From positions 55,001-119,000 of the forward strand of contig CANXME010002647.1 of the NCBI GenBank assembly GCA_948144175.1: DNA of 64,000 nucleotides, written 5' to 3'. The notes below the pieces were generated by a model. That model ran no database searches. It was given only the letters and a program-made list of their open reading frames with translations, and was not told the origin of the DNA. Positions 1 through 60,388 of this stretch are shown in pieces. Every line of letters starts with the position of its first letter. Position 1 is the stretch's first letter. Position numbers and translations under genes: made by a program. Source of the stretch: Closterium sp. NIES-65. Its lineage: Eukaryota; Streptophyta; Zygnematophyceae; Desmidiales; Closteriaceae.

Positions 1-3000
1 CGCGCGCACGACGCGGTCGAGCCAGAAGGAGTTCTCCTGCAGCCCCATCTCGTGTGCGCGCTGCTCCAACTCCCGTGCCGTCTTCACGTCTGACTCCTCC
101 GGCCCCTCCCTCTGCACTCGCTCTATCTCCGCCACACTCAGGTCCACCTGCCAGGGGTGGGTGCAAGACGAACGGATGCAGAGAGCCTTGCTGACTCACT
201 GGCGTGGCAAGGTGAGCGGATGCAGCGAAGAAGAAGGGACGAAGCAGAGTGGAAGCAGCGAGGAAACATGAAGGGCGAAGGCGGCAGAGAGGCGTGGAAC
301 GGAGTACCGCAGCAGCGTGGGAGAATATCGACACAGAGATGCGTAGAGAAACAGAATCTCCTAAAACCCGAACGAAAGTCAGAGCAAAAGCGACTGGAGC
401 AGAGCAGAGCAGAGAAGAGGAGGGAGCGCACAAGGGACCAAGCGGTGGTGGGGTCGCAGGAGAAGGCGACTGCCAGGTCCCCCCGCACCCCGCCGCCTCG
501 TGATGGCCGCGCCCCCCCCAGGAAGGACGACGCCGCCACCGTGTAGATCTGCCGAGGAAGGTGAGGGGGGGGTGAAGGGGGTTGGTGGCATAGGGAACAG
601 GTGGCAGGGGAGGCAGGTGAACGGACAGGGCGGAGGCGGGTAGAAGGAAATGGCAGGGATTTGGGAGGGGAAAGGGTGAGAGTGGGAATGGAGAGAGGCG
701 TGGAAGGCGTGGTGGAGCGGGTGAGAGGGGAAGGAAATGGGGTGGAGCAGGCGAAGGAAGGGAGGCAGGCAGTCAATGCCTCAAAAGAGAGCGACTGCGA
801 GGCGAGTGGGGGTGAGAGGCGAGTGGGAGGTGAGAGGCGAGTGGGAGGTGAGAGGCGAGGTGGCAGGGGCAGAGAGTGCAGTGAGATGAGAGAGGCGTGG
901 TGAGGTGAGAGACCTGGCCATGCTTGAATCGCAGCAGCTGCATGATGCGCGTCTCCAGCAGCTTCGTGAGGAAGCCCACCCACATCGTCTCCTCCACCTG
1001 ACCGTGCTCATGTGCATGGCGCATGGTGCATGGCATGGCATGCAGTCACATGGCACGCAGTCACATGGCATGGAGTCACATGGCATGCAGTCACATGGCA
1101 TGGAGTCACATGGCATGCAGTCACATGGCATGGAGTCACATGGCATGGAGTCACATGGCATGGAGTCACATGGTATACATGCAATTACTGCCATGCAGTC
1201 ACGTGTCATAGACTCACACAACACGGCAAATTGAATGAAAGTCAGACACGACACAGTGATGTTGCGCGTCTACACATGAGAATGAGCATTCAAAATCAGA
1301 AACTTTCCATGCAAGGCGCACTCATGACTGTGAGTCCCTCCATGTGTGCCTACACGTTGAGACGCCTCAAGCACGCATGGAGCGGCACGGCACTCACGAC
1401 TTTGGGGCTGGCAGGGATGGTGAGGGGGAAGGTGATCTGCGTGTAGCCCTGCGCCTCCACCATCACCCTCCTCACCTCCTCCCTGTGCTTCCCCACCACG
1501 CACCACACAGCACACGGCGGAGAGGGCAGAGGGCAGAGAGGGCGGAGGGCGGAGAGGGCAGAGGGAGGAGAGGGCAGAGGGAGGAGAGGGCAGAGGGAGG
1601 AGAGGGCAGAGGGAGTAGTAAGTGGGCTATTCAGAAACAGGGTAGGACAGAGCATCGACACGAGCAAAGCACATCAACAGAGAGACGCGCACAAGGGGAA
1701 AGCTGGCAGGACCCAGGCGCTTCCAGATGTCAACGACCCCAGAGCAGAGCAGAGCAGAGCAGAGCAGGGCGCACCGGATGAGGGAGTCGGGGAACTTGAA
1801 GGGCAGCGCCGTGAGCGAGTCGCGCTCGTAGAGCGGCATGGCGGCTGATGGGGGAGGCACTGGGATGCCGCCCTGGTGTGGGGGATGGGGGATGCGGAAA
1901 AGGGGGAGCAGGTGGCGTGCATGTCAGACCGGTGGGTGGCATCCATGTCAGACCGGTGGGTGGCATGCATGTCAGACCGGTGGGTGGCATGCATGTCAGA
2001 CCGGTGGGTGGCATGCATGTCAGACCGGTGGGTGGCATGCATGTCAGACTGGTGGGTGGCATGCATGTCAGACTGGTGGGTGGCATGCATGTCAGACTGG
2101 TGGGTGGCATGCATGTCAGACTGGTGGGTGGCATGCATGTCAGACTGGTGGGTGGCATGCATGTCAGACTGGTGGGTGGCATGCATGTCAGACTGGTGGG
2201 TGGCATGCATGTCAGACTGGTGGGTGGCGTGGTGGAAAAGGAAGAGAAGTGGGGAACTTGGCTCGTTGGTTGAGGTGACTGACTGAATGGGTGAGTAAGT
2301 GCGTGCACGAGTGGGCGAGAGAGTGTGATTGTGAGTGGTGATATAAGTGCTGCAATTGCTGCAGCACCCACCTCTTCCTGCCCACACACATCGACTCACA
2401 CACTTAATTTCTGCCCACCCTGCGCCTGTGTGGCTTTCATTGCCACCTCACCAGCCACTGCCTGCACCTATCAACCGTGCCCTCACCAGGTACTGCTTGA
2501 TGAGCGGCAGCGCCTGCTCCAGGCGAGTGCTGCCGACGATAACGGCAGTGAAGGGCGAGGGGTCCTTGAACGCCCGCTCAAAGTACTCACACGCCCTGCT
2601 GTAGTCCACGCGCTTCAGATCCGACTCTGTTATTGGCTGCAGGGGGAGGGGGACGGTGGGTGGGGATGCACGGGGGTGGGAGGGAGACATGCATGGGGAA
2701 AGGAGGAGCGCAGGGGGGTGCTGCCGACGATGACGGCAGTGAAGGGCGAGGGGTCCTTGAACGCCCTCTCGAAGTACTCGCACGCCCTGCTGTAGTCCAC
2801 CCGCTTTAAACCCGACTCCGTGATTGGCTGTAAGGGAGAGATCGGGAAGGGCGGGAAGAATGCAAGAGGATGGGAGGGATGCACAAAGGTGCGAGACCCA
2901 CCTTCCCCCTCCCCTCCTTGCCAGTACCACCCTAATCCCCATTCCACTCATCCTGTACCCACACAACACCTTCAACTTGTTGTAGCTGCTACCATATCCT

Positions 3001-9000: not shown

Positions 9001-12000
9001 CTCTCAACCTTCCTTTCGCTCCTCCCGCCCTTCATTCTCCTCAGCACTTCTTCCCTCCACCTCATCCGCCTCTCGGCCTCCATTCTACCCACCACTCCCC
9101 CACACCCACACAAGCAGCAACCACCAGCAGCAGGCAGAGGGCGCACAGCAGCAACAGCAGCAGCAAGGACCACTGGAGCCACAGGCTATGGCATGGCACC
9201 AAGCGACGCACGGCACGGCACGGCACAGTCGGCGACCTCAGCACATGACACGAGGTCGCATGCGCCCCACTTTGTGTCATCAGAGGCTGACACCGGGTCC
9301 AAATTCCGCAACTCGTGAACACACCCCAGGTTGAAGCATTGCACACAGTACAGAGCCTTCTCCACATGCATCGAGTCATCACCAATGAATGGTGGATGGC
9401 TCACTTTGCAACGGTTGACAGTCAACAGTCAACGGTCACAGTTGGTGTTTCTAACACGCCAGTCAACCACTGTAAACGGTGGTCCCCCTCACCTGGTCGT
9501 CAAGGAAGTCGGTGCATTTGACCGCCACGCGCATGCCGTTGGATAACCTCAGCTCCGTCACTCCCACACCCGGATACTCCCTCTGCTCCTCCACCTCCCT
9601 GCACGGGGGTGAAATGAGAGAAGAGAAGAAAGGAAAAGGAATGGAAGGGAAGGGAAGGGAAAGGAAGCGAAGGGAAGGGAAGGAGAAGGAAAGTGTTTGT
9701 AGGAAACCAGGTTGCATTCCCTGCTGCTGCTCAACAGCTCTCACCATTTTCTTGCACCCTCATGATCACTCACCCTGCCACCCACCTGCCACGGCTGCCA
9801 CTCATCCCCCACTGCGTGCCACTCACCCCGGTACGGGTGGTGTCTGCACGATGCTCTCGGGAATGTCGTCCAGAGTCCATGGCTCTATCAGCTCCACTGC
9901 TTCTTCGCCTTCACCCCCCGCTGCTGCTGCTGCTGCTGCTTCACCGCCCCCTGCTGCTGCTGCTGCTGCAGCTGTTGCTGTTCCTGCTGCTGCGGCGGTT
10001 GTTGCTGTTGCTTCTGCCCCCTCTCCTCCCCCTTCCACCCCACCCCCACCCTCTAAACCGCCATCCCCCTCTCCTCCTCCCTCTCCTGCCTTTTCAGCAT
10101 TCCCTTCTCCTCCCCCTTTCTTCTCTCCTCCCTCTCCACCACTCTCCACCACTCCCGCCGACTCCCCGTCTTCCCTCACCGCGTCAGCAGCCTCCTTCGC
10201 CTCATCAGCCTGAGCAGCCTCGTTGGCCTGCACAGCAGCCTTGGCAGCCGCGTCAGCGCGCATGGCAGCCACAGTGGCCTCCTTGGCGCGCATCACGCGG
10301 GCGATGACGCCTTGAATCGCCTCCACGGTGGCCTGCGCCTTGGCCTCCACGATTTTCACCACGCAGCTGCTGCTGGGGGAGATTTCTGACGCCACCGCTG
10401 CCACCTCTGCTGCTGTGATGCCTGCGGGACGGGAGGCGGAGACCAAGGGAAGAGGGTTGAGAGTGTAAGGGGTAAAGGAATCGTGTGCCCACGATCTTCA
10501 CCACACAGCAGTTGCTGGGAATATTTCCGACGCCACCGCTGCCACCTCTGCTGCTGTGATGCCTGGGGAGTGAGGGGAGGGGAGGGGGAGACCAAAGGGA
10601 AGCGGGTTGGAGTAAAGAGAGGGTGGCCTGAACCTTGGCCTCCCAATCGTGACCACGCAGCTGTTGCCGGGAGATATCTCTGATGCCACCGCTGCTGTGA
10701 ATACCTTCGCTGCTGTGATGCCTGGGGAAAAAAAGGTAAGGAAGGGGGGGGTGACAGCGAAGCGAGGGGCAGAAGGAGGAAAGGAGAGACGAAGGGGGGG
10801 AAGAGAGGAGAAGCTGAGAGGGAGCGTCCACGGTCTTGACGCGCCAGTGCTGCTGCCAGCACACCTGGTTAAACCCCACACAACCGCACCATACCTGCCA
10901 GCAGCCCCAAGCGCACCTGGCAGCAGTGCCTTGGCGAGTCGTGCCTCGTACTCAATGCCGGGCGAGGGCTCTTCCTTGAGGAAGTGCGCCAGGTACTCCT
11001 CTCTCAGCGCCTCGCTGTACGTCTGCTCCCTCTCCACGTATGCCGACTCCACGTCCGCCAGACACTGCACCCGCGCCATCGCTAGCTCTCGGTCTGATAT
11101 GCCGTGCACTTGCACCCGCGCGACCTGGGGGTGGGGGATGGGAGGAAGGGAGTGAGGGAGATCGAGGGATAGTGAAAGTCTGCTCCCTTTGCTCTCCACG
11201 TATGCCGAGTCCACGTCTGCCAAGCACTGCACCCGCGCCCTCGCCAACTCACGATCGGAGATGCCATGCATTTGCACTCGCGCGACCTTGGGAGAAGCGG
11301 AGGAGGGAAGAGAGCGAACAGAGGGGGAGCAGAGGGAATAAGGAAGGGACTCTGGGGCTGCGTCACCTCCTGACGACACCTCGTCACCTCCAGCTGGGCT
11401 CAGAATGAGCGTGAGCTTAAATCCTGGACCAGGGGCCCTCGCAGTGACCAGCGAGGAGGAAGGAACGCCCAACCAACAAGCGAGCAGCCACACACCCCCC
11501 ACGCACCTCCATCCACAGAGCCTCCAGTGCCTTGAGCGTGCCCTTGTCCTGGCAGCTGGCGCTGAGGGAGAACGAGCGTGTGGACTTCACGAGCGCCTCC
11601 ACCGTGGCAGCAGCGGCGTAGAAGGGCGGGTTGGGGCGGCGCGAGAGCAGGAAGAGGCGGTGCGAGAGGGCGGCCTGGAATAGCTCCTCCACCAGATACT
11701 GCCTGTAGTCCATTGGGGTCACCATGGCGTGCACGGGCGCCTTGCACGTCACCATCACTGCTGACTGGGAGGCGGGTGGGGGAGAGACACCAGAATCAGG
11801 GAAGAGACGGAAGGGGTGTAAGGTGAGAGGTCCAGCAAGAGTAGCTCCTCCACCAGATACTGCCTGTAGTTGGAGGGGGTCACCATGGCGTGCACTGGCG
11901 CCTTGCACGTCACCATCACTGCTGACTGGGAAGGGGGACGGCGGGAGGAACAGAAAATCAGGGAAGAGACAGAAGAGGGGTAAGATGAGAGGCGAGTGGT

Positions 12001-15000
12001 GAGAGTAGCTCCCCCATCAGGTAGTGCCTGTAGTCCCAGGCGTCCCCATGGCGTGGATGGGCGCCTTGGGGGGCGACAAGCAGAGGGTGATGCAAGGATA
12101 GAGGAGAAGTGAGGTGCGCGGCGGGAGTAGATGACTGGGCAGGGAGAGGATGGGGATAGTGGCTTCAACTGAAGGGAAGCTTTTTTTGGCGTTTCAAGAA
12201 AATGTGACCAAGTGCAAATAATACAGGGAAGCACGAAGGAGGGGCAGCAGCAGCACCAGGCAGGCCCCTTCGCTACCTCTTCATACCACACCACACCACT
12301 CTTCATACCCACCAGCATCCCCACCCACCCACACCGCATTGCACACTATGCACGCTACTCCGACCTCGACTCACCCCGCCAGCCTCCCGCTCGACGAAGA
12401 CGGAGAATCGCGGTTGCGAGTGCGAATGGAAGGGCTCTTCAGGCACTGCTGGGCGCGCGGATGGGCAGAGCGGCAGCTTGGCGGCAAAGTGCTCTGATAT
12501 CAGCGCCACCACTGCCTGGTGGGGGGGGGAAGGGCGGGGGGGGGCAGGGGAGGGGAGGAGAGGGGAGGGGTGGTGAAGGGTTAGTGAAAGGGAGAGGCGG
12601 GTTTAGGGCGGCAGCTTGGTGGCAAAGTGCTCCGCTATCAGCGCCACCACTGCCTGGCGGTGGCGTGGAGGGGGGGAGAGGGAGATGGGGAATGTTAAGG
12701 GGTAAATGAAGGAGAAGTGAAGGATGGGAGGAGGGGCAGAGCGGCACCTTGTGGGCGAAGTGCTCTTCTATCAGCGCCACCACTGCTTGGTGGGGGGAGG
12801 GGGAGAAAATGGGGAGTGAAAGGGGAGCGAATGGGAACGAAGGGGAGGGTAAGAGCGGGGAGGAAATGAAGGGAGAGGGGAGGCGAATGGACAGGGTCAC
12901 AGGGGTACGGTCACGCCAGAGAGGGGGTGGGGGGGACGGGTGTGGAGGTGAGGGAGGGATGGCAGCAGCAGGAAAATAGAGGGGGGAGAGAGTAGGGCGG
13001 AAGAAGGAGGAGGAGAGGACGACAGCAGAGGTGGGCCAGCACACCTGAGCATGGGGAAAGTCCTCCCGGCCAGCACGGCCATGGCATGACAGCCATGCTT
13101 GTGGGGAGCATCGGTACCGCATGAGGTCGCGGCAAAGCAGAGTGACGAGTGAATGTTAGGCCCGTGCCCCACATGCCCCACATGCCCCACATGCCCCACA
13201 TGCCCTACATGCCCCACATGCCCCACATGCCCCACATGCCCCACATGCCGCACATGCCCCATGAACACACCTGAGCATCGGGAAAGTCCCCCACAGCGAC
13301 CACGGCCATGTTGCCAGGGTGGTACCACCACGTGTGGTAGAAGCGCTTCACAGCGGCCGCTGGCACGCAGCACTAGCCCCACGCCCTCCACACGCCCCAC
13401 GCCCTCCACACGCCCCACGCCCTCCACACGCCCCACGCCCTCCACACGCCCCACGCCCTCCACACGCCCCACGCCCTCCACACGCCCCACGCCCTCCACA
13501 CGCCCCACGCCCTCCACACGCCCCACGCCCTCCACACGCCCCACGCCCTCCACACGCCCCACGCCCTCCACACGCCCCACGCCCTCCACACGCCCCACGC
13601 CCTCCACACGCCCCATGCCTTAACAACACACCTGAGCGTCAGGAAAGTCCCCGACAGCCACCACGGCCATGTTAGCGGGGTGGTACCACGTGTGGTAGAA
13701 GCGCTTCACAGCGGCTGCTGGCACTCCGCGAATGACTGATTCCAGGCCGATGGGCAGCCGCTCTGCGTACTGTGGGAGGTGCATTCAAGGAAGGTGGATT
13801 AACGGAGGTGCATTTGAAGGAGGTGAATTCAGTGAAGGTTTCAGCTTGCGGGTGGTGCTTGGCTAGGCTTGTGGGAGAGAAGGGCAGATGGAAGACAAAG
13901 GAATAGAATCTGCATCACAGGTGTACAAGAAACGCCTCGCTGCACATAAACCTCAACCAGAAGCTCAACTCCGACCCCTAGGTCTCACATGCTGCCCCCC
14001 AGCTGCCAGCCAGTGAACGTCCTGCATAACATAAACCCCTTGACCTTTCGCCTTTCCCTCTCTAAACCAGAAATAAACCCCGAACCCATATAACCCCAAT
14101 CCATAAATCCTAAACCCTGCTACTGGATAACCCCAATCACCTTGCTGCCGTGCATGAGCAGGTGCCAGTGCGCGTCCTGCATGCGCCCCATGGCGTTGCG
14201 CCTCTCCCGCCACTCCTCCAGCACCGCTCCCCTCTCCTTCTCCACGTCCTCCTCTGACATGCGGATCTGCACCCCCCCACGCACACGGGGGAGGGCGCAC
14301 ACAGAAAGGCGCACAGGAGGGGCCACACATTATTTCCCAAACCAGTGACTCAGGGAGGGATGGATGAAGGCAGCACCTCGGGTTTATCAACAGTGAGCAC
14401 AGCCGGCCACCGGACCTGGACTTAGAGAGAGAAAAAAATATATATATTTGAATTGGCCTCGCCTCGCTCATTGTCAAAGTCAGCAAGCATGGACACGGCA
14501 TGCGGTAGCAACTCAGGCCTATCCACCTGCAACTGCATAGCACTGCACCTCGAGAGACTCCAACTCCCATCCCATGGCACAAACGCACTCCCCCTGCTCA
14601 CCTCGCTGGCGAAGTCAGCTAGGATAGACACAGCGTGCGGCAGCAGCTGGGGCTTATCCACGGGCAGCTGCAGCTCGAGGCACCCCACCTCCCATCCCAT
14701 GGCACACGCCCCCTCCTCACTCACTCCAACTCCCATTGTGTTGCTCACCTCACTGGCAAAGTTAGCCAGAATGGAGATGGCGTGCAGCAGCAGCTCGGGC
14801 TTATCAACGGGCAGCTGCAGTGCCGTGTAGTGCAGCAAGAGAGACCCCAACTCCCATCCATTGCACAAGCGCCCCCCTCCCCTGCTCACCTCGCTGGCGA
14901 AGTCAGCCAGAATGGAGATGGCGTGAGGCAGCAGCTCGGGCTTATCGACGGGCAGCTGCAGCTCAAACACCGTCTCGTCTGCTGACGTGTACGCGTTCTG

Positions 15001-16175
15001 ACACGCGCCGAACTCCGCCCCGATGCTCTCAAGGAAGCGCACGATGTCATGGTTGCTGTAACGCCTCGTTGCGCTGAAGGCTAGATGCTCGAGAATGTGC
15101 GCCACTCCCCTCTCCGCCTCCTCCTCCGCCAGGGACCTGCAGGGCCGCGGGGGAGAAGAATGGGAGGGTTTGCAAGAGAGCTTGAGTATGTGCGCCACGC
15201 CCCGCTCCGCTTCCTCCTCCGCCAGGGACCTGCAAGGCCGCGCGTGGCAGAACGGGGAAGGCGCATGGCGGATGGGGGGAGACGGACGGCAGGTTGGAGG
15301 ATGGTGGGACGGAGGAGTGAGGTGGGGGAAACGAAAGGGAAGTATTCCAAGAGAATTTGAGTGTGCTCTTTGCAAGCACGATGTGATGTGGTGGTTGCTG
15401 TAGCGCCGCGTGGCGCTGAACGCCAGGTGCTCCAGTATGTGCGCCACTCCCCTCTCCGCCTCCTCCTCCGCTAGGGACCTGGCGGAATGGGGGATGGCGG
15501 ATGAGGGAAGGGGGGTGGGGGATAGCGGAAGGGGGGACGCGGAGCGGGAAGGCGGATGGGGGATGGCGGACTGCGGGATGGCGAATAGGGGGAGGCGGAT
15601 GGGGGAAGGCGAATGTGGGAAGGCCAATTGGGGATTGCGGATGAGGGATGACGGATGGGAGACGACGGATGGGGGAGGGGGGACGGCGGATGGTGGATAG
15701 CGGGAGGCGGAAGAGAGTTGGGTGAAAGGATTGGGGCAAAACCACGCTTGAGAATAGTGGAAGTCTTCTGTTCCTTCCCACCCCACTCTCTCTCCTCACC
15801 CCGCTCTCCCCATACGGTCCTCTCCCACGAGAACCAACCCCCATGCTCTTCAGATCCTCACCCCACGCGGACCGCCAGCGCCAACGCGGCGCGGTGCTGC
15901 GGCTTGGCGTTGCGGCGCACGTAGTACGTCACGCCGTTGTCGAGCCGCCCGTGCAACACCGCGCCCTCCGGCCCCAGCGGGATCGCCGCTTTCCGCGACT
16001 CCTCGCTCCTCAAATCCAGGGGCTTTAGCGAACGAAACGACGACACGTGTCCGGCTCCTCCGCTTCTGCCGCTCATCCCGCCGCTGCCGCTTCGTGTGAG
16101 ACTCAGCCGAGTGACGTCAGGCAAAGGTGAATCTAGCGAGGATTCTGGCTGCCGGGGGGGTGATGGTGACGTCAT
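1..16175 (-). CDS. PQQL-like M16 family zinc metalloprotease (3' end outside window)
   Basis: Homologue of the plant insulinase-type (M16) protease typified by Arabidopsis At5g56730. Seventeen exons with compatible phases were traced: 15862-16175 (ATG at 16175), 14890-15136, 14141-14266, 13632-13769, 12375-12515, 11507-11764, 10917-11124, 9827-10421, 9493-9598, 4077-4310, 3176-3340, 2487-2636, 1775-1872, 1398-1482, 914-997, 432-548 and 1-147, about 1071 codons. Exon 2 carries the inverted zinc motif HILEH and the downstream Glu in TVFEL, so the active site looks intact. Exon 8 adds an Ala/Gly/Glu-rich linker between the two halves. The C-terminal half follows the family order (VTEL, GLSEV, YMRVFSGECS, RDPFTAFANR, VIVG, GVRGDLAVAFSCD) and the last visible residues, QENSFWLDR, lie near the family C-terminus, so perhaps 80 residues are missing. 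Nearly every intron contains truncated copies of the adjoining exon. The 5' end is divergent from NF-YC. Confidence 0.93.
1040..1170. repeat. 15-bp tandem repeat
   Basis: About nine units of GCAGTCACATGGCAT with CAG/GAG variants in protease intron 14. Confidence 0.93.
1917..2228. repeat. 24-bp tandem repeat
   Basis: Thirteen units of GTGGGTGGCATGCATGTCAG plus ACYG in protease intron 12. A C/T variant splits the array into two homogeneous blocks. Confidence 0.95.
2715..2835 (-). repeat. 5'-part copy of protease exon 12
   Basis: About 120 bases nearly identical to the start of exon 12 (PITESGLKRVDYSRACEYF to VIVGST) with acceptor TTACAG, upstream of the intact exon (2487-2636). Confidence 0.93.
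3055..3620 (-). repeat. Copies flanking protease exon 11, with 18-bp array
   Basis: A 3'-part copy (YGRRYEFK) at about 3060-3110 lies downstream; a 5'-part copy (LVYQLFACSVRAEAKDIALI) at about 3545-3615 lies upstream. Between exon and upstream copy is an 18-bp array (3386-3555, GGAGATGAAGCATGATTT, about nine units). Confidence 0.92.
3706..3905. repeat. 17-bp tandem repeat
   Basis: About eleven units of CATCCCCTCACTCCCCA, pyrimidine-rich, in protease intron 10. Confidence 0.92.
3950..4015 (-). repeat. 3'-part copy of protease exon 10
   Basis: Keeps KLSSYMRVLSGECSPDDLET and the exon end just downstream of the intact exon. Two 5'-part copies (about 4340-4430 and 4500-4580) lie on the upstream side. 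Confidence 0.9.
4666..8922 (-). CDS. INTS4: INTS4/SIEL-like HEAT-repeat protein nested in an intron of the M16 protease gene
   Basis: A 1418-codon open frame lies wholly inside protease intron 9 (4311-9492), on the same strand. It resembles Integrator subunit 4 (plant SIEL): HEAT/ARM segments such as DDCAHVRLHAVRLVGHV, then LLQAFSKKLK, AAAGAVVVGMEDDYRAVRAA, CSDDVAAIRALALRSL, LASLQDKSLAVRAAGRCLL and a stop just after LLQHAQLYSQAVLLG, in the order seen in INTS4. The family would continue for roughly 300 more residues, so the C-terminus is absent. The frame is padded with Ser/Pro/Gly/Gln and Glu-rich stretches. A 120-bp in-frame duplication (about 6637-6710 and 6757-6830) looks like the exon-copy duplications in neighbouring genes, so parts of this frame may really be introns that happen to be open. 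The start is uncertain. It could be an expressed nested gene, a fragment moved into the intron, or an assembly join. Confidence 0.58.
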   Translation of the reverse strand: MQEDMWGVQKEKGYGEEMGPCPVLRVQMGPPLIRKLRRRCCHSNCSSRFNHGMVDTPADSPAHLPSPLAVWGWWGQRRAQHEQEEDEEGRGEGQQEMQAEGQGMEGEREGVEEGGVRAGEGGLCVCSCKECLHWRPHCMCVEPLGLPSIGPEQEQLQQRQQQQQRGVTPWQVQLVHCLQQLRCVGCEAGGGGSGIRWDALEAKTEGPGARREGRKGGGGREERGDGGVLCGDEVCAVECSLWGLEAALQGAERESSKWRAERGSRSLLCASANRLLLLAAGSELERLLLTWLDGPMLPEVGALSAPVLVVRLLTQIVLLLTRQGRAVANGAAAASSGAGGINVQGCRGTDACTCESRYLCVGLWIKHGRGLGRMAASASEASGSHPPSAITAFASLEKSAAARASCVATASVAASASAHAVAFFLACLSSIPPPTATTDATAATTTPPAADSVLRPLPWCITEQLLHSATVTLNTVNPRKPPTPESTAASQLLLSPLLSRAALAPLLRTLSRHPSHRVRLRLCDLSLALARLLAEAALRERWRVGRKGERVVEGKGGVEVKGKEGAVGGVGGARGEGGEDTSREAEFLPLPRPSTSLVSAYARLLSSALYSAANDSVPSVRAAALGALGEVPWLVVAGEWGGGAGEERRGEDRAEEIQRQLGGEAMRGPCGMGEADRSRAVADGSDESREGDEGGVLLIAVAGMVQRACEAMEDDCAHVRLHAVPHGSGEGNKGGVVLAAVAGMVQRACEGMEDDCAHVRLHAVRLVGHVVAWVRREGVALLLRGEARGRERGGEGVGKQSERGTRVTGTAHQHQQQHQQQHQQQQHQQQQAVTWQAVSDITFLSLSARATDPSPTVRCAALRTTAALVSASPPLLPAPAASSSPSPPPLPAAAPLLLPAPCEAALLQAFSKKLKQPPPPSLCPLPLLLTPSRRSHSDPQLGGRRAKRKKQQEERQQQQQKAVGQGGQGESSECKWLRCLREAAAGAVVVGMEDDYRAVRAAAVAAAAAIATPHTLHTAAPCFNSSTPSIPSSLLPSSSPSLRVALEACSHLIGGCSDDVAAIRALALRSLSRLLLLWGDPLFRFLSSSPIPLVAATAAPSTGGSNDAAATAGITRQEPLLVPSDAPKLAPAPVTTSPTIAPSATTSLLNVVATFSGRRLSAVLASLQDKSLAVRAAGRCLLAVLRPAHSVGVRACVRALLGNMERAVRAGGEEEEEEEGSEGEEGVEGEMGWVDGGGAWGGVGGVGVGGGGEWAAMGGLGRGRKRGRERDGRGRVVGKEGREIQEVLDTLAAIGAACSCHVASMCTELAADVAALKACRGARAATASGCVPTARPPLPSPLYPVPSGGREATRGGKRARGRGRGKGRGEEQRVEQGYVAGLCAVLGAAGKALPFLSALLPPGLLQHAQLYSQAVLLG
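10497..10722 (-). repeat. Two 5'-part copies of protease exon 8
   Basis: Acceptor plus GITAAEVAAVASEI-like sequence at about 10497-10564 and 10650-10722, upstream of exon 8. Confidence 0.9.
11200..11287 (-). repeat. 5'-part copy of protease exon 7
   Basis: VARVQMHGISDRELARARVQ to SAYVES, nearly identical to the intact exon start, with its acceptor. Confidence 0.93.
11845..12070 (-). repeat. Two 5'-part copies of protease exon 6
   Basis: Copies at about 11845-11927 (SAVMVTCKAPVHAMVTPSNY, acceptor present) and 12008-12065 (more decayed). Confidence 0.9.
12605..12790 (-). repeat. Two 5'-part copies of protease exon 5
   Basis: AVVALI.EHFA.K with acceptors at about 12608-12660 and 12748-12792, upstream of exon 5. 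Confidence 0.92.
13040..13372 (-). repeat. Two 3'-part copies of protease exon 4 and 9-bp array
   Basis: Copies at about 13258-13372 and 13040-13085 end at CTCAG|GTGTG like the intact exon (13632-13769). Between them is a 9-bp array, CCCCACATG, at about 13165-13260. Confidence 0.9.
13373..13618. repeat. 18-bp tandem repeat
   Basis: About thirteen near-perfect units of CACGCCCCACGCCCTCCA between protease exon 4 and its copy. Confidence 0.95.
14465..14840 (-). repeat. Three 3'-part copies of protease exon 2
   Basis: Downstream of exon 2, copies at about 14740-14825, 14605-14690 and 14465-14545 keep LQLPVDKPELLPHAISILA and, in the first two, the GAG|GTGAGC-type donor. Confidence 0.93.
15185..15480 (-). 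repeat. Two 5'-part copies of protease exon 2 including the zinc motif
   Basis: Copies at about 15185-15236 (SLAEEEAERGVAHI) and 15390-15480 (through HILEHLAFSATRRYSNH) each have a CAG acceptor; the second duplicates the HXXEH site. Confidence 0.93.
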
Positions 16176-18340: not shown

Positions 18341-18405
<65 letters not shown>

Positions 18406-34028: not shown

Positions 34029-34492
34029 TGCACTGGTGCGTCTCCATCTTGATGCCCAACTTGAGGTAGTCATGGATCATGGAAAATCATGGATCAGATT
34101 ATGTACGTGCTTCTAGTAATATCAAATAGTTACAGCTGTTTGAACAGTGCAACCACCAGTAGGGAAGCTGCAAACTCGTGTTCACACCACCATAGCCCAC
34201 TCCCCAACACTTGGCTCAACCACTCCCTCGTCCTATCAACCGTTCCTATCCAGCTTCCAACCATGATCATTCAAGCTTTCAACACGATACACATCACTTG
34301 CTCCTCCAGCATCTCCCCTGCCGCTTCACGATTTATGCTCAAGCTGCTTCACCGCTCTACAAACTTGTCTCCTTGGCCGATTCCCTGCCCTGCTTTGCTA
34401 ATCCAGTCAGAATGCTAAGCTGCTTTCTGTAGCTTAATCAATGTTTTGAAATACCACTCCAGCCCAACAATTCAGATCACTGTTTCACCAAT
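34029..34492. other. Spacer between convergent BDP1 and DUS2
   Basis: 464 bp with no supported gene; it should carry the 3'UTRs of both genes. Confidence 0.5.
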
Positions 34493-40576
<6,084 letters not shown>

Positions 40577-47700: not shown

Positions 47701-47933
47701 TCAGTTGCACCTCCCCCACATCCCACCTGGACGCAGTCAAACCCAGCTCGCCCCACTGCAGCCACTCACCACACTCCACCGCATCCAACTCATCCCCCTT
47801 GCCCCCTCTGCCTTCACCGTCCGGCCTGCCAGTGCATGTGGGCCGGTCCCCTGTGTCGCCTCACTCGCTCGCCAAGGGGACAGGGAAGGTGGTGAGGGCA
47901 TCACGATTCCAGAGGCAGGAAGGAGAGGGATAA
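44769..47933 (+). CDS. Long PADRE-domain (DUF4228) protein
   Basis: 1054 residues in one open frame. The PADRE core is near the N-terminus: AMLLVLPDGSARLYTEELTV and AQLACDFPDLVVSCTGID, then a short loop and SDHTVLQLGRTYYLSN, the usual ending of this plant domain. PADRE proteins are stress- and pathogen-responsive in land plants, and their biochemical role is not settled. Typical members have 150-250 residues; here about 900 residues of Ser/Pro/Thr-rich low-complexity sequence follow, with a short basic end (GKVVRASRFQRQ) that may be conserved. No introns or exon copies are seen. The ATG at 44769 is the first in frame; a later Met at AMLLVLPDG would still give the whole domain. Confidence 0.75.
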   Translation: MAAAINSATAEHSPLASTSHSPDCAFRHRSPSPCAATWSLPISHAASASASAMLLVLPDGSARLYTEELTVAQLACDFPDLVVSCTGIDSGDKCDGGVRDDCDSKAQEKESKPRGAFLSDHTVLQLGRTYYLSNRDGPCSDPSAASGAMNDSRRSSNPSSSSYTTSTSIIEDIRNREDYCTSGASISSSGDGSSFSGGSWRTFSSGDEVLCNRSDAGSSNSGNLSAVVSTGTESRRFLSKECTIACHRRSLSLVFADAQMPSPRQSVPCNVGNQQARRSLTPTISRSGELSPVLSHIRSAQRPPATSSPVANRRQFLRTTTPMRDRPIAPRHLRTRTEILGDAPILTDSLVGDAPIAGWRTITSADWASLQDTLRQNKLQLQRSQLQPSQLQPSQQWSRAAPRRRNFSATTAVSPADWMSATPSAASLPRDRVRSPGRARAQLAAHGASGRGAAAAGVVGGTAVDRPVEVCHVAVPAGRALRRCVSHTETRVGEGRVVWWGGEAEQAQRQGEAEAEGGEAHQENDKTRIDDIQELEPVDLGSGGVVNGGDCNEGDTNDLPDSPNSTSSGDSTDSEADANEAFWDSPRCFFSPLSLSLPRSPFTASVPAPSLLSLTNTPTSKSAESPTTVTSATGTGVVHAPVTVTSRPGHTRRRTMDICLPLPSLSPAPATVPAAVSARRGSFSAAQSPKKTPSGGAGGTGGAAAAAFSPSPLRANSGDGIRSAATPTQESSQSSSRSRALLRSMSSRERQRSRENMPCSNLSGTSSPCPESNSGCNAGRNPSPLPWVHARANSLWNSLPQLSSAPLDASWKVQEQNTCNSNGGSTSDNCGSTSSSNSRASSSRTSSGSSRKFSLLNFKSLSISIRSGNNNCSSCTNSPHSPFSPSPSESPIPTASSVSSFDSSFNSSFPHSSTSSSPASSTSSPSSCFSSPSSCFSSHSPSLVSQSHTPNPHIPQKHPTQNLLPTNQLLPSLAHPSLSCTSPTSHLDAVKPSSPHCSHSPHSTASNSSPLPPLPSPSGLPVHVGRSPVSPHSLAKGTGKVVRASRFQRQEGEG

Positions 47934-48600: not shown

Positions 48601-48699
48601 CCCCTACGCCCCTCCCCTTGGCCCCCCACGCCCCACGTCCCCATCCCCCCTCCCTCTCCGGGAGACTGATGCCCGTACCCCTCCCTGTCCTCCCCATCC

Positions 48700-49383: not shown

Positions 49384-52300
49384 TCACTCTCCCTCCTCCC
49401 CCTCCACCTCCTCCCCCATGCTCCACACCTCCAGCTTCCGAGAGAAAGACCTCGGGCGCTCCCTCTCCCTCTGCAAGTGTGTCCGCGCGAGATTGATGTC
49501 CTGAAAGGGGCAGACATAGGGGAGGAAAGAGACACTCGTAGGAATCCCTGGGCAGGTGAGAGTGGATAGCTCAATGGTTGAGACCCTGGGCAGGTGAGAG
49601 TAGATCGCTAGGCACTGTTGCAGCTGGCCCACCTCCTCCTCCTGCTCCTGTAACTAAACCCCAACTCTGCTAACATCCCTTTTCACCACATCTTACCGCA
49701 TCAGATTAGACTACACCGCACCACACCATACTGAGGGCAGGTCTGAGAAGATTGCCAGGTGCAGCTGCCCCACCTCCTCCCCCTCCCACTGCACCTCCAG
49801 CTAACCCCATCCCCTCTCACATCCCTTTCCACCGCATTGCACCACATCTCATCACACCACACCACACCACACCACACCACACCACACCACAGCACACCAC
49901 AGCACACCACAACGTATCCCACCACGCCGCACCACACCGCACCGTGGGCAGGTCAGAGTAGATGGCGAGATCATGCTGCAGGCGCCCCACCTCCTCCTCC
50001 TCCCCCTGCACCTCCGCTGCCAGCTGTAACAGGGCAGCCATGTCCACGTCAGCACTGTACCCCGCAGCTTCTAGTGAGCCCTGAGAGGGAAGAACGGAAT
50101 AGAAATTCAAGAAAGGAAAAGAAGAAAGAGCATTCATTGACCCAGATGTATCAGGGCAGTCATGTCCACGTCAGCACTGTAGCCCGCAGCCTCTAGTGAG
50201 CCCTGTGGGAAAGGGAAAGGAGGGAGAGGGAACAAGAGGAATAAAAAAACTCCATTCTTTTGCTGCTGCGCAGGAGAGAAAGAGGGAGAGTTAGAGCGGA
50301 GACCCAAAGACATGGAAAACCCCATTTGTTCTCTTCCGCCAGCCATGCCATCACATCCACCTCACTGGTGACGTGGCAATGTTACTGTGCCCACGTCGGC
50401 AGGTCGCACGAGCGCCGCCAGGACTTTAACCACTGCCACCATGACATGTCGAGCACGGGCTCCGAGCAGGGGCGCAAGGGCGACTCAAACATCCAGGTGC
50501 CGACTCTGGCTGCACGCCTGATAATGAAGTGCCGCCTTTTTTGTGCCTCACTCATTGCTTGGGAAAAGGCAGAACTTCTTTTTCTGGCGTGCAGCCAGAT
50601 TCGACACCTGGATGTTTGAGTCGCTCGAGAGTGCGCCTGTGCTCGATATGTCATGGTGGCAGTGGTTAAAGTCCGCGCTTGTTCTGTCATGCCATGCCAT
50701 GCCATCATATCCATTTCACAGGAGAGGTGGTACTGCAACTGTGTCCACGTCGGCAGTACAGCACTTTGCCGCCGCGAGTGAGAAGAATCGGGGAGAATCG
50801 AGAAAATCCTCCATCAATCTCCCCAACCCCCTCACCCACGCACACCTGAGCACCAAACTCCTGCAGATTTAGTTGTTGCTGCTCCTGTTGAGGCTCAGCT
50901 GCTGCCGCTCCAGTTGATGCTCCTCAAACGGCACCCTCTATTCCCCCTTCTCCGCTTATCCTTTCCCTATCTCCCCCATCCACTCATCCACCCACACCCA
51001 TCCCACTCACGCCCACCTGTATGGCGGATTGCTGCAGGCCCAAAACTCTGCTGCTGCTGCTGTTGAGGTGCCTCAAACATCATTCCCCACCTTCTTCCCA
51101 TGCTGAAACTCTCCCACTGTCCACCCATTCACCCACACATACCTGAGCGGCAGATCGCTGCAGGCTCAGCTGCTGCTGCTCCTGTGCCGTTCTCCTGATT
51201 TTGTCTGCCACGTCATCAGTGGCCCTGCTGATGTCATCGTCCGATGGCAGCTGCGCCTTCCAGCTGGCAGCACAGCACAGGGTGCCACGTGGCAGAGGGA
51301 GGTGGAAAAGAGAAGGTCAAGGAGGTTGACAACTACAAATAAATGTAAATCCAACAAGAAAAAAACTGCAAGAAAGAACGGAAAGAAGGACGAGTGTGAG
51401 AGAAGCTAGATTAAGCTGCTCTTAGCCTTCTCCCCTCACACCCACCCTCACCTCTCGATGCACTCAGCCAGAGCTGTGACCTGCTCCTGTCTTGTCTGCA
51501 GGCTGGCCTGGGTCTGCTGCATCCGCCGCAGCAGCTGCTCGCAGTGCCATGCGCGCGTTGAAAGGTGAGTCACTGCGCTGGGAAGACTGGAGAGATGGAA
51601 ACAAGGCATGGAAAGTAAGGGGTGGGGGGGCGGAATGGGCAGGTGTAGCAGGCTTGTGTGGGTCTGGTGCATGCGCTGCAGCAGCTGCTCGCAGTGCCAT
51701 GCGCGCGTTGACAGGTGAGTAACGGTGCTGGGGAGGCTGGGGGGAGGGGAAAGGAGGCAGGGACGAGGGAGAGGGGTGAATGGGTGGGTGTAGCAGACTG
51801 GCGTGGGTCCGCAGCATCCGCAGTTGCTGGCAATGTCAAGCGCGCGTGGACAGGTGAGTGACGACGCTGAGGAGGCTGGAGAGAGGGGAACAAGGCATGG
51901 AAAGAAAGAGGGGAGAGGGTGAATGGGTGGGTGTAGCAGGCTCTGCTGCTGTAGCAGGCTCTGCTGCTGTAGCAGGCTCTGCTGCTGTAGCAGCGGTGGC
52001 TATATGCACTTACCGTGGTCCTAAATACGCCATGCGTATGGTTAGTAACCTATTGCACACAGCACATGCATGTGAAATCTCACCAGTGTGGGTCCGTGAC
52101 AGCGAGCAATTGGCAGAGCTCTGCAATCTGCAACACCGCTTCTGTTGTGTCAACGTCATGGAGCTTGATCGCGGAACTCGCCCAACACTGCTGCCAGCAT
52201 GGCTTTCAGGTGCGCTGCCGGGAGGAAAACAAAAAGGACTCACCAGTGCGGGTCGGTGACTGAGAGCAGTTGGCAGAGCTCTGCAATCTGCGACACTGCT

Positions 52301-53172
52301 TCTGTCGTGTCAACGTCACGGAACTCGCCCAACACTGTTGCCAGCACTGCCTTGAGGTGCGCCGCTGAGAAGGAAAGAAAGGGAGAGAGGAAGGAAGGAG
52401 GTGACTTATGAGTAGACCCAAAAGAGCTCTGCAATCTGAGACACTGCTTCCGTGGTGTCAACGTCGCGGAATTCGCCCAACACTGCTGCCAGCACTGCCT
52501 TAATGTGCGCCGCTGGGAGGGAGGGGGCAAGAGGAAGGACGGATAAGGAGGGAATTCAGGCCACCACAAGGGATTCGCAGAATACTGATGAGAGCACGAC
52601 CCTCTGACGTCACGTTTCAGGCCACCACAAGGAATTCGACTGACATCGAGCGAGATCCACCCAATGCAGCATCTTCATCGTCACCAGAACCACCTTCAAC
52701 AGAATCCCCTTCACCAGAATCACCTTCACCAGAAACACCTTCACCAGAATCACCTTTGCTAGAACCACCTTTACGTGAATCAACTTGAGCAAAATCACCC
52801 TTCACTGGATTTACTTTCACCAGAATCACCTTTACCGATTTTCCTAATATCGCCTTAACAGACTTCACCTTCCGCTCGGTATCCTCGAGCCTGGATCTCC
52901 GCTTCCGCCATCATCGGCGACTTAGCGGCGGACGTTGCTACGCTCCGCGCACCCTGATTCCCACCGGCGTTTCGGCCGCCGCTGCTGCTGCTGCCGGCGT
53001 TAATCCTGCTGCCAGCGCTAACGCTGTTGCCGGCAATATTGTTGCTAGAATCGCTGGCTCTGCAGCTGCTGCCGCTGCCGCTGCCGCTGCCGCTCCTCGC
53101 GCTGTCGCTCAGAGCTAACGAGCAGCCTTCCGGACTAGAGAAAAGCCTGGTTCTACAGTCACTATCCGCCAT
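49384..53172 (-). CDS. HAUS1: HAUS1/AUG1 subunit of the augmin complex
   Basis: Eight exons in phase: 52869-53172, 52244-52364, 52014-52049, 51452-51577, 51143-51263, 50846-50860, 49943-50080 and 49384-49500, 325 residues. After a Ser/Gly-rich start come KAVLATVLGEFRDVD, LTIRMAYLGPR, a coiled coil (CEQLLRRMQQTQASLQ, DDVADKIRRTAQEQQQL), and the best block GYSADVDMAALLQLAAEVQ, LAIYSDLPTDINLA, RERERPRSFSRKLEVWSM, which matches the plant HAUS1 C-terminus in order and ends EEVEGEEGE. Augmin recruits gamma-tubulin to existing microtubules in spindle and phragmoplast. Exon 6 is 15 nt (EFGAQ) and optional for frame. The central coiled coil is shorter than in Arabidopsis, so an exon may be missed. Copies flank exons 2, 4, 5, 7 and 8. 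Confidence 0.8.
49555..50205 (-). repeat. Copies flanking HAUS1 exon 7
   Basis: A 5'-part copy upstream (about 50150-50205: GSLEAAGYSADVDMTAL, acceptor present) and 3'-part copies downstream (about 49740-49795, 49595-49660, 49555-49580: EEVGQL..LAI.S.LP). A CCACA run at 49850-49915 separates them. Confidence 0.85.
51660..51885 (-). repeat. Two 5'-part copies of HAUS1 exon 4
   Basis: At about 51670-51740 and 51795-51880, copies of the acceptor and first 60-70 bases (VTHLSTRAWHCEQLL). The farther copy is more decayed. Confidence 0.88.
52085..52520 (-). repeat. Copies on both sides of HAUS1 exon 2
   Basis: Upstream copy at about 52425-52515 keeps acceptor and AHIKAVLAAVLGEFRDVD to IAEL. Downstream copy at about 52090-52205 keeps most of the exon and the donor CACTG|GTGAG but has a short insertion that breaks frame. 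Confidence 0.9.
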
Positions 53173-56700: not shown

Positions 56701-59700
56701 ACCTTTATTGGCACCTCCCATGCTGTGAAGTCGGATGATGGGCTGCGAGGGATGAAGAGTGTATGGCAGAGGACATGAGATGGGAGAATGCGGAGAGATA
56801 GCAAGGGAATGAAGGGGTTTAAGAAGGGGACGGGGCAAAACAAAAAGGGACAACATATAACGAAGGGGCCAAAAAAACCGACGGGGATCACACTTGCAAT
56901 TGCAAACACGCATGCTGTCGACAACACGAAGGGTACCAGCACCACTTGCACACATCCTCCACGTTAGACAGCATGACTTTGCACTCATCCACGTCAGCCA
57001 GCACCACTTACACGTCATCATCCACAGCAGCCAGCACCACTGCCAGCTCCTGAGGCTCGAGGTCTGAGACAGAGGGGTGTGACGAGTGCTCTCTCTGCAA
57101 GGCGCGACACGGAAGATATGGGGGACAGGAGGAACAGGGAGGAAACAGGTATATGTAGACTGGCCAGCTCTTGAGGCTCGAGGTCTGAAACAGAGGGGTG
57201 CGACGAGTGCTCTCTCTGCACGAAGGGCAAGGAGTCAGGAGGGGATGAGAAAATAGAGTTGATTTCTAAGGCGCATAAAAAATCAGCACCATCCCTCTGG
57301 AAGAAGGGCGAGGTCGATATTGGAGGAGGCAGGAAGGAACAGGAGAGAATCGGGTGGGAAAGGGAGAGAGACGGCGAGCAACGGATGGAGGTGGGGCATT
57401 GTCCCCCAAAAAGGGCAAGGGCATTGTCCCCCAAAAAGGGCAAGGGCATTGTCCCCCTAAAAGGGGCTGCCAAAGAGCTCCTGCCTGCTACAGACAGAAG
57501 GGTCGCCTCACGTAGGGGCTGCCTCACTTGCACTTCCCCCTGTTCTCCTTGTCAGTCTCCCACCTTCAACCATACACCCCCCCTGCTTCTGAGACGTCTC
57601 AAAAGTCTTCCCCCTGTTCTCCTTGTCAGTCTCCCACCTTCAACCATACACCCCCCCTGCTTCGCCCCACCTTGGTGCCCAGCTGCGCCCACTGCCCCCG
57701 TGCCGGGGTGTGCTGTGACCGCTGCTCCCTCTGCTCCTTGTCGCGTGCTGACACGGACTGAAACGCCACTGCCTGTAGCTGACCCGCCTGTGAGGGGGAA
57801 AGCGGGAGCAAGGGGAGAATTGTCTTCCCATGCTCACACAGCTCCTTGTCAACAACGCACCTTTCAGGCACCTAAAAGACCCTGAAAACAGAATAGAATC
57901 TCTGAGCATGGTGATCTGAGAGGGAGGAGGCATTCACCTGGGCATGCGAGGAGGCGCGGTTGAAGGCAGAAAATATGAGCCCCACGAAGCCCTCGTCCAG
58001 CATCTGGTACATGCCCTGTGTGCGCACGTCTGGAGGAAGATGGAGCAAGGTGGGGGGAGGGAGAAGAGAAGGCACAAGGGGCGTTTGAGTTCCACAAATC
58101 CCTCGTCTAGCATGTGGTACATGCCCTGTGTGCGCACGTCTGATGTGAGGGAGGGCATCAAGGTGGGGGGAGGGATTGGGGCACATGGGGTGTTTTGAGT
58201 TGGCAAGAAACACACACCGGACTAATATGAGTCCCACCCACGAACCCCTCGTCCAGCATGTGGTACATGCCCTGTGTGCGCACGTCTGATGTGAGGGAGG
58301 CAGCGAAGGGAGGGAGCGAAGGGAGGGGTGAGGAGAAAGAGACATTGGGGGGCACATAGAGGTGTTTTGAGAGGCCGACGAACCCCTCGTCTAGCATCTG
58401 GAACATGCCCTGTGTGCGCACGTCTGGTGAGGAGAGAAGCAAGGTAAGGGGACATGGAGGTGAGAGGAAACAAATGTAAGAGTATATAACTCCCATGAAC
58501 CCCTCGTCTAGCATCTGGGACATGCCCTGTGTGCACACGTCTGGTGCGCTCCCGAGAGAGGCGAGGGAGGAACAGGGAGCACACCGGGTGTTTTGAGCGC
58601 ATCAAGAGAATATGAGTCCCACGAAGCCCGAGTGCAGCATCTTGGTGCATGCCCTGTGTGCGCAGCGCACGTCTGATGGACAACATAGAGAGCAAAGGGA
58701 AGAGGCCTATGGGGTGTTTTTTTAGTCGACCAGAACAAGTGAATGTGCGTCCCGCGAAACCCTCATATAGAATTTGATACGTGCTCTGTGGGCACACGTG
58801 CTCTGTGGGTACACGTGCTCTGTGGGCACACGTGCTCTGTGGGCTGGGCACACGTGCTCTGTGGGCACACGTGCACTGTGGGCACACGTGCAGACGTGTG
58901 CACACAGAGCAGTGCAAGCCCTCGTCCCGCAAGCTCTGTGTGCACACGTGCTTTGCACATTGCAGCAAGAAGTGGGGGCGAAAGGGAGGGGGCTAGGGAG
59001 GGAAGGAAGGCAGCACATGAGGAGGCAGGAAGAGGAGAAACAAAGAAAGGCGGTGGTGCTTTATAGTTCAGAAAACAGATGAAACGTGAGCGATGCAGTG
59101 CAAATACAACACACTCTTTATCCTATGTGTGCAGATCCTGTTGACAGGCATGCTGACATAATCAATGTGTGCTGAGCCAAGCCACATACCGACATGGGAC
59201 GGGTGAACAGTGATGTGTGGGTGCGAGTGGTACCACCCAATGACACGTGTCCTCATGCCAGTGGCCACTGACATTCTGCAATTTTCAGCATCAAAAGGAA
59301 TGGAATGAATTGGAATGACATTCAGAGACAATCAGCTTATGGCATGGAATGGCATGACGTGACATGCATAGACATGGCTGGCCGTGGTCAACGTGGTCAA
59401 CATGGTCAACGTGGGCAGCATGCATGATGGCATGAAGCAGGGGCTGGGATAAGGAAGCAAGTAAGTAAACACAGAGGATGCATGAAAGCATGCATGCATG
59501 AACAACAGGTGAGCCTCGTTACTAGCCTTATGGAAATCCACTAGCAAGCTTGCAGGTAATTCTCATGCATAGCGAAAACAAAAGAAATCAAAAATACAAG
59601 AAACACGGTGCCAAGCGTACCTCTCAGCCTCGGCAGACGCTGCTGCCAGCTGCTCCGGAGTCGTCTCGACTCGATCTTTTCTCCTGTCTGCCCGAACCTG

Positions 59701-60388
59701 CGGGGCAGCACCCCAAATCTTTGCAGAGACCACAGGGGTTCGTCCACTGTGGTCGTACTGTAGTTGAAATAGTGGAGGTGGGAGGGGTGGGGGGGGAGGA
59801 AGGAAAAAAGTGAGGGAGAGAGTACATATGAGGGTAGTGTGAGGAAGAGAGGATGATGTAATCTTCAGGCAGTATGAAAAGAGACGGTGAATGGGAGGCA
59901 TCTGGCAAGGGGTGAAGAGAGATGGTGAGGTGGAAATTCCCTACGAGTGTTTGAGAAAGACGAACAACGGTGAAGAGGGATTGAGGTCCAAAGATGCTAA
60001 TCAGAACTTTACAGAGGCACAGATGTCTCCAAAACAAACGTTATCAATAAGAGGCATCAATGGAAGGAGACTTTATAAGGAGGAGTCCTCTACGTACATG
60101 GAGATGACTTTTGAGTCAACTAATGAGTCAGCAACGTACATGGATATCCCCGAGCAACAGACTTTTGAGTCGACATAAAAGAGGAGCTTAAAAGAGAAGG
60201 CTACGTACATAGATATCCCCGAGCAGCAGACTTTTGAGTCGACATAAAAGAGGAGCTTAAAAGAGGAGGCTACGTACATGGATATCCCCGAGCAGCAGAC
60301 CCATGATTTCCTCCGCTTCCGTTGAGAGCGCGTGCGTGGCACACGTCAGCCACACTTCTGACGAAACCACCACCTCCGTCAGCGACAT
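53750..60388 (-). CDS. BRCC3: BRCC36, K63-specific JAMM deubiquitinase, with long Q-rich tail
   Basis: Ten exons in phase: 60278-60388, 59621-59757, 59190-59275, 57938-58029, 57671-57787, 57012-57094, 56572-56742, 55731-55811, 55307-55361 and 53750-54934, 705 residues. The MPN+ site is intact: the Glu of STEAEEIMGLLLGD, then WYHSHPHITVHPSHV joined over intron 3 to D-VRTQGMYQMLDEGFVG (H-x-H-x7-S-x2-D). Later blocks also fit plant BRCC36: AWEVPIKVV, LQRMLLVEEKEAYEKAV, HGEPNPLELIHHHATYQAAL, METCLVPAIAALENIT. The protein cleaves K63-linked ubiquitin chains in BRISC/BRCA1-A-type complexes. The last exon adds 394 residues (KQEEQARAS, Ala-rich repeats, then Gln/Lys and Ser/Pro-rich) absent from known family members. 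Exons 1, 4, 6, 7, 8 and 10 have truncated copies in the introns. Confidence 0.92.
55060..55110 (-). repeat. 5'-part copy of BRCC36 last exon
   Basis: Acceptor (CACCAG) and about 50 bases matching LKQEEQARASERASHAQEQ, upstream of the intact exon; beside it is a GAGTCGACTC palindrome (55017-55026). Confidence 0.88.
55815..56010 (-). repeat. GA-rich repeat and 5'-part copy of BRCC36 exon 8
   Basis: A copy of HGEPNPLELIH with CCCAG acceptor lies at about 55965-56010, upstream of exon 8 (55731-55811). Between them is a roughly 22-bp purine repeat (GGGTGGGAAGAGGGGA) at 55830-55925. Confidence 0.85.
56275..56490 (-). repeat. Two 3'-part copies of BRCC36 exon 7
   Basis: Downstream of exon 7 (56572-56742), copies at about 56415-56490 and 56275-56340 repeat LTQLQ.MLLMEEKEAYEKAVE and end at donor-like CACAG|GTATGT and CAGGC|AG. 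Both stay open and in the same phase as the exon, so alternative use is possible. Confidence 0.9.
57165..57222 (-). repeat. 5'-part copy of BRCC36 exon 6
   Basis: 58 bases almost identical to the start of exon 6 (REHSSHPSVSDLEPQELA), with acceptor TGCAG. Confidence 0.92.
57400..57475. repeat. 25-bp direct repeat, three units
   Basis: GGCATTGTCCCCCAAAAAGG plus GCAAG, repeated three times in BRCC36 intron 5. Confidence 0.9.
58084..58960 (-). repeat. Six 5'-part copies of BRCC36 exon 4 and derived 17-bp array
   Basis: Copies at about 58084-58141, 58233-58290, 58378-58426, 58498-58543, 58620-58676 and 58745-58800 each carry a CAG acceptor and the exon start (VRTQGM..MLDEGF.G). The farthest one runs into a 17-bp array (58783-58900, GTGCTCTGTGGGCACAC) whose unit resembles the first bases of the exon on the minus strand. 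Confidence 0.92.
60119..60277 (-). repeat. 69-bp repeats of BRCC36 exon 1 donor with palindromes
   Basis: Downstream of exon 1, 69-bp units repeat the end of the exon (LLLGDI.) with its GTACGTAG donor. Each unit includes CTTTTGAGTCGACATAAAAG on the plus strand (60162-60181, 60231-60250). Confidence 0.92.

Follow-up and report, generated by a model that had tools for sequence, protein, structure and literature searches.

Introns of the alga Closterium sp. NIES-65 carry, beside many of their exons, truncated copies of those same exons, the side on which a copy lies corresponding to the exon edge that it retains. We examined these copies in a 64,000-nt stretch of one contig (CANXME010002647.1, positions 55,001 to 119,000, hereafter the window) and at CCT (chaperonin), kinesin and SNF2 loci elsewhere in the 874-Mb, 2400-contig assembly. 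Each copy, we conclude with good confidence, is what remains of a short, local tandem duplication whose breakpoints fell one inside the exon and one in the intron next to it; exchange with diverged alleles probably acted later. Together, the copies form a real and dense record, present at many genome loci, of an ordinary type of event, and they are decaying relics of a narrow size range.

Exons were defined by the combination of a protein-family match, splice signals and reading frame; a Pfam search on whole-frame stretches was insensitive. The final run for polarity comprised 29 exons (19 CCT, 9 from the window and 1 SNF2) and 70 scored copies. The nine window exons had been picked because copies had already been seen around them and are thus a biased sample, whereas the CCT exons were not selected for this trait and provide a less biased share of exons with copies. 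Two more CCT exons, CCTi 34-112 and 1-39, which bring the CCT total to 21, entered only an earlier run of 25 exons (21 CCT and 4 from the window) and showed no copies in it. Wide gene duplication has been reported for strain NIES-65 (PMC10407611), and the window itself has a homeologous copy on contig C1213 with 218 differences over 55,874 aligned bases.

Self-comparison of the window, with a cut-off of E ≤ 1e-3 for direct and inverted matches alike, yielded 103 direct matches, every one within 1.4 kb, and only 2 inverted ones, both self-palindromes. Five block-wise dinucleotide shuffles of the window produced no direct match at all, and just one of these shuffles had an inverted match, a single one. 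The 30 CCT loci (99.4 kb, with homeologous pairs counted twice) showed the same imbalance, 335 direct versus 5 inverted matches, and the repeats have the adjacency and direct orientation of local tandem duplications. Partial exon copies are therefore pervasive in introns and commoner than chance, as the preliminary description of the window had proposed, with 16 of the 21 CCT exons carrying at least one; for the earlier run as a whole the figure was 18/25. That description had counted six genes with copies in the window, and we verified exons and copies in four window genes: an M16 peptidase gene, a PC-esterase-like gene, an unnamed minus-strand gene at 51.4-52.5 kb and BRCC36. An annotation-free three-base periodicity was weak in the window, with p < 0.05 in 5/34 pairs. 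Tandem duplication is a known kind of event, and it is its density that seemingly is unusual here.

Upstream of their exon, 40 copies retained the acceptor side with the 5' exon part, none the donor side only, and 5 were interior fragments; downstream, 16 retained the donor side with the 3' part, none the acceptor side only, 8 were interior and 1 was complete. Every one-edge copy (56/56) thus lay on the side stated earlier, although the polarity does not hold "always", since 13 interior fragments and one complete exon copy (window 52084-52215) occur among the 70. The same order of copies was seen at further CCT, kinesin and SNF2 loci in profile tables inspected by eye and not exhaustively. A segment running from the upstream intron into the exon would, once duplicated in tandem, produce intron, acceptor and 5' exon part followed by intron, acceptor and whole exon; one running from the exon into the downstream intron would leave the whole exon first and then a 3' part with its donor. 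Both the intact exon and the strict polarity follow from a duplication with one end in the exon and the other in the intron, so that the left-right order of the copies is a matter of geometry, not of function. The proposal that duplications persist only where they leave the exon undamaged becomes superfluous, as such a duplication keeps the exon whole by construction, and selection is not needed as a cause of the polarity.

The duplications fall in a narrow size range. Spacing to the nearest copy had a median of 160 bp (quartiles 141 and 190, n = 37), with 24/37 values between 130 and 190 bp. Matches were admitted up to 1.5 kb, so the rarity of long units is genuine in this set; short units are limited partly by detection and partly, it may be, by the branch point and pyrimidine tract needed before the intact exon. 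A link of this spacing to nucleosome size is a lead only. The intronic part of the unit was recognisably shared (z ≥ 3) in 15 of 31 nearest-copy gaps, 9/12 in the window and 6/19 in the CCT genes, one of the six alike CCT gaps being no better than other-gene controls. The window count covers 12 gaps, all of less than 120 bp, because the gaps of farther copies can include nearer ones; before this restriction, 15/19 copies had z ≥ 3. The breakpoints proposed earlier, one in the exon and one in the intron, thus stand on direct orientation, adjacency and recurrence at many loci, with shared intron sequence in about half of the gaps.

A locus inside the window offered an outgroup. Over window 11772-13773 the homeolog holds a diverged M16 allele, flanked by megablast blocks 99.1% and 98.6% identical, and this 2-kb block probably stems from exchange with a diverged lineage. 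The block exons (two inside, plus M16c at the edge) differ between alleles at 6/358 first and second codon positions and 33/179 third positions, and much of the intron sequence fails to align. The copy sets differ as well (window versus homeolog: M16b 2 vs 0, M16c 2 vs 1, M16x 2 vs 1, by eye and blastn), and their turnover falls within the same span of time as the divergence of the M16 alleles. When the homeolog served as outgroup, private changes in the six window copies numbered 22/263 at first and second positions and 14/133 at third positions, a ratio close to the ~1.3 predicted from sequence context, while 2 and 8 changes, respectively, were assigned to the intact window exon (sites covered by two copies being counted twice). 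Such near-even changes indicate that these six copies have behaved as neutral DNA since birth. Kinesin relatives, 76-78% similar in parts or else 99% identical, were unusable as outgroups.

Several observations weigh against duplication followed by decay as we propose it. The scarcity of inverted matches applies to the gene regions studied, since 80 kb chosen blind to genes contained 46 direct matches within 1.5 kb together with 17 inverted ones. In 13/19 CCT nearest gaps there was no clear intron homology despite a well-kept exonic part, and CCT exon-edge pairs longer than 22 bp were all at most 96% identical, some intron-only pairs being near 97%. The age gradient (9/13; pooled Fisher p = 0.013) was non-significant by a sign test (p = 0.27). 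The synonymous differences also fit poorly. Over the 26 exons with copies, nonsynonymous (Ka) and synonymous (Ks) divergence between copy and exon were 0.065 and 0.438, giving a Ka/Ks of 0.15 (95% interval 0.12-0.19; CCT 0.13, window 0.19 with interval 0.12-0.29), with 448/1818 differences at third positions and 243/3654 at first and second ones. This ratio lies below the 0.26-0.37 reached when neutral decay of a copy beside a constrained exon is simulated under varied CpG and transition biases. On the near-copy branch, likewise, 26/287 changes at third positions and 20/593 at first and second ones exceed the neutral prediction for third positions.

Identity of copy and template at birth fits the recently gained kinesin unit described below and the six M16-block copies, and the synonymous excess lies elsewhere; neutral decay alone, applied to all copies, is in tension with both Ka/Ks and the near-copy branch. 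Hypermutable third positions were discarded as an explanation, context rates predicting only the ratio of ~1.3 given above. Mosaic patches in the copies were weak (6/45 at p < 0.05, combined p = 0.002). The simplest additional process is post-duplication exchange with diverged alleles, and it probably explains the excess. Such exchange would later replace some intact exons while the copies in the introns stayed behind as older relics, and the synonymous excess in the chaperonin genes would result; the 2-kb M16 tract would be a direct trace of this process. Exchange between sequences of different origin has been reported in strain NIES-4550 (PMC10407611).

Alternatively, the duplication itself might join two diverged alleles or homeologs, the copy deriving from one and the intact exon from the other, for instance if a diverged homolog served as template for re-copying at a break in the exon and the ends were then joined without annealing. 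This two-template birth would account for a Ka/Ks of 0.15 at a Ks of 0.44 and for the similarity that in CCT genes often ends at the splice site; a within-strain Ks peak near 0.35 has been published (PMC10407611), and a diverged M16 allele does exist in this genome. A regression intercept of 0.166 also seemed to speak for it; this value is inflated by noise in small d12 counts and we do not rely on it. However, the private changes of the M16-block copies are neutral-like, and their third positions match the resident allele at 14 sites and the other allele at 8, as expected for resident-lineage copies born near the allele split. Homologous introns in 9/12 nearest window gaps and a recent unit gain nearly identical to its neighbour also speak against it. 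Birth from two templates is possible in the CCT genes, but we regard it as an unlikely origin for the copies.

The third-position excess, seen both between copy and exon and on the near-copy branch, might instead reflect coding-level selection that keeps the copies, either because they serve as alternative parts of exons or because conversion from a mutated copy would put the exon at risk. Several properties of the copies make this improbable. The truncated ones lack a donor or an acceptor, and splice dinucleotides are being lost at a roughly neutral pace: AG was kept in 31/36 upstream and GT in 14/15 downstream copies, approximately as expected from a change of 7-8% per site. Between homeologs, the exonic part of the copies evolves like the introns around it, with 12/2922 differences compared with 153/25,126 in the remaining, mostly intronic, sequence of the loci and 5/3913 in the intact exons, although the power is low (p = 0.17 against the observed copy-exon mix). 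Those 12 differences fall 3/3/6 on the three codon positions, and the private changes in the M16 block are near-even over codon positions. The copies thus resemble pseudogenic exons, being of same-gene origin and free of present coding constraint by the splice dinucleotides, by the M16 block and, at low power with its 12 differences, by the homeolog comparison.

Equally doubtful, in our opinion, is that exon edges are hot spots of duplication, with splicing, R-loops or the positioning of nucleosomes at exons as conceivable causes. Copies do occur at most CCT exons, and adjacent copy pairs reached 1.66 per kb in 15 CCT loci (which partly overlap, one through a homeolog) and 0.66 in the window, compared with 0.24 in the gene-blind 80 kb. 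Within gene regions, however, targeting of exons was not seen: among pairs with a spacing of at least 80 bp around the 21 CCT exons, 24/35 touched an exon versus 21.1 expected by random placement (p = 0.20). Copies are frequent at exons because of the repeat density and the introns of ~500 bp, the mean intron of NIES-65 being reported as 485 bp (PMC10407611). An assembly artefact or reverse-transcribed exon pieces, for which nothing speaks but the general hazard that repeats pose, can practically be dismissed, given that the same copies occur on separate homeolog contigs, that they bear intronic acceptor or donor signals and lie in direct orientation beside their own exon, that exon M16a and its copies match only two homeologous loci among the best candidates, and that read N50 is near 30 kb in the presumed source study (PMC10407611). 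The same two loci, for this one exon and among the best candidates, are not the distribution of an introner or other dispersed element.

The duplicated units, usually of 100-300 bp, would arise by repair of breaks or paired nicks with local re-copying, often enough for introns of ~500 bp to be seldom free of copies, and unequal exchange may also alter the number of units in arrays. Copy number is still changing, with units gained or lost at two loci between homeologs 96-99% identical. One is a 136-bp unit difference between loci L032 and L033, the extra unit being 72-85% like its neighbours; the other is a 138-bp extra unit in the kinesin gene L062, absent from the 99% identical L063, that matches the next unit at 123/124 bases. 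These were the only two exon-copy unit differences seen among the homeologs compared, which are about 96-99.9% identical and whose insertions are mostly short-unit repeats (by eye). Four SNF2 homeologs, 99.4-100% alike, have an identical set of upstream copies. The very high duplication rate suggested earlier for this lineage is thus not shown for the present.

A broader picture, about which we are more doubtful than confident, is that of a lineage in which a dominant duplication process of about one nucleosome in size places copies of exon edges in most introns. Combined with diverged-allele exchange, it would leave a datable record of past exon alleles in almost every gene, and the many near-perfect decoy sites would serve as a natural assay of how they are passed over in splicing. 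If most exons do have decaying decoy acceptors and donors, this genome becomes a ready test of exon definition; intron gain through tandem duplication could be examined in it too, as could the rate at which short duplications arise and their size spectrum. Gene-annotation pipelines risk mistaking the relics for exons. It is the mixing with diverged-allele exchange that merits a second study, and the M16 tract allows allelic exchange and duplication to be dated against each other at one locus.

Table 1. Intact exons and their copies in four genes of the window (window coordinates).
Feature	Position	Strand	Remarks
M16 peptidase exon M16a, intact	14890..15136	-	Pfam PF00675 6.8e-26; splice sites, frame
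M16a upstream acceptor-side copy	15385..15478	-	
M16a upstream acceptor-side copy	15180..15229	-	
M16a downstream donor-side copy	14749..14820	-	
M16a downstream donor-side copy	14602..14676	-	
M16a downstream donor-side copy	14477..14537	-	
M16 exon M16x, intact	13632..13769	-	inside diverged-allele block; outside the exons of the 70 scored copies
M16x downstream donor-side copy	13270..13365	-	by eye
M16x downstream donor-side copy	13040..13100	-	by eye
M16 exon M16b, intact	12375..12515	-	
M16b upstream acceptor-side copy	12730..12786	-	not found in homeologous allele
M16b upstream acceptor-side copy	12605..12653	-	not found in homeologous allele
M16 exon M16c, intact	11507..11764	-	at edge of diverged-allele block
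M16c upstream copy	12003..12068	-	scored interior
M16c upstream acceptor-side copy	11839..11925	-	
M16 exon M16d, intact	10917..11124	-	
M16d upstream acceptor-side copy	11178..11286	-	
M16 exon M16e, intact	9827..10421	-	3' end of low complexity
M16e upstream acceptor-side copy	10622..10721	-	
M16e upstream acceptor-side copy	10489..10562	-	
Block with diverged allele in homeolog C1213	11772..13773	.	other exon copies in the homeolog
PC-esterase-like exon, intact	21313..21510	+	PF13839 3.4e-5, below family cut-off
PC-esterase-like upstream acceptor-side copy	20887..20963	+	
PC-esterase-like upstream acceptor-side copy	21138..21238	+	
PC-esterase-like downstream donor-side copy	21630..21715	+	
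PC-esterase-like downstream donor-side copy	21785..21868	+	
PC-esterase-like downstream donor-side copy	21936..22021	+	
Unnamed gene, exon G5a, intact	52244..52364	-	
G5a upstream acceptor-side copy	52423..52512	-	
G5a downstream complete exon copy	52084..52215	-	small insertion; polarity exception
Unnamed gene, exon G5b, intact	51452..51586	-	
G5b upstream acceptor-side copy	51793..51869	-	
G5b upstream acceptor-side copy	51648..51735	-	
BRCC36 exon, intact	57938..58029	-	BRCC36_C domain nearby, same strand, PF18110 9.9e-9
BRCC36 upstream acceptor-side copy	58605..58664	-	
BRCC36 upstream acceptor-side copy	58484..58540	-	
BRCC36 upstream acceptor-side copy	58371..58423	-	
BRCC36 upstream acceptor-side copy	58237..58285	-	
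BRCC36 upstream acceptor-side copy	58086..58139	-	

Other repeats accompany these genes. Large arrays of 40-bp and 25-bp minisatellites occupy window 35225-35918 and 36031-37023, and in length the two homeologs are 840 and 776 bp apart at these arrays. A perfect tandem of a 75-bp unit lies at 22384-22650, the homeolog being without 225 bp of it, and a 254-bp imperfect palindrome, 77% self-complementary, at 50421-50674. At window 34300-34301 the homeolog has a 12.6-kb insertion (C1213, about 843946-856555) containing two Ty1/copia-type elements in inverted arrangement, with a target duplication ACTTG seen by eye. An open frame of 1076 codons at 44703-47930 has a weak match, below the family cut-off, to a plant-type PADRE domain. 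Outside the window, inverted and near-adjacent kinesin motor fragments (G000:C511:712945-713361, C1725:169179-169595 and C1052:556971-557362) are unlike the direct exon copies.

Partial duplications inside genes are not new in themselves: Gao and Lynch reportedly treated internal gene duplication and intron creation in 2009. At the level of search listings in the open-licence PMC literature, we found no report of this exon-copy pattern in Closterium or any other alga. Small tandem duplications produced by break repair are local and direct, as here, although those reported in human are short insertions of less than 100 bp (PMC8355091), compared with a spacing of mostly 130-190 bp in Closterium. 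Mammalian pseudogenic exons are likewise decaying copies near their parent exon, reported in 0.4-1.0% of the genes of four mammals with about 12-22% of them on the opposite strand (PMC2718932), whereas in Closterium 16/21 CCT exons have copies and edge polarity is strict. Beside those counts, the density that had been called exceptional is indeed high, in a comparison that is rough because the detection methods differ; the contrast with the full exon duplications reported in 4-7% of vertebrate genes (PMC12343006) is rough for the same reason. Here only 1 of 70 copies is a complete exon, unlike tandem exon duplications with mutually exclusive splicing. The closest geometry is that of the potato RdRp gene, where the 3' side of an intron and the 5' side of the next exon were duplicated in tandem (PMC4974935), as in our 40 upstream acceptor-side copies. 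In potato, a single gene is reported to have activated a cryptic donor and gained a new intron and a piece of exon, whereas in Closterium many exons are involved and, judging from their sequence, the copies appear to be intronic relics.

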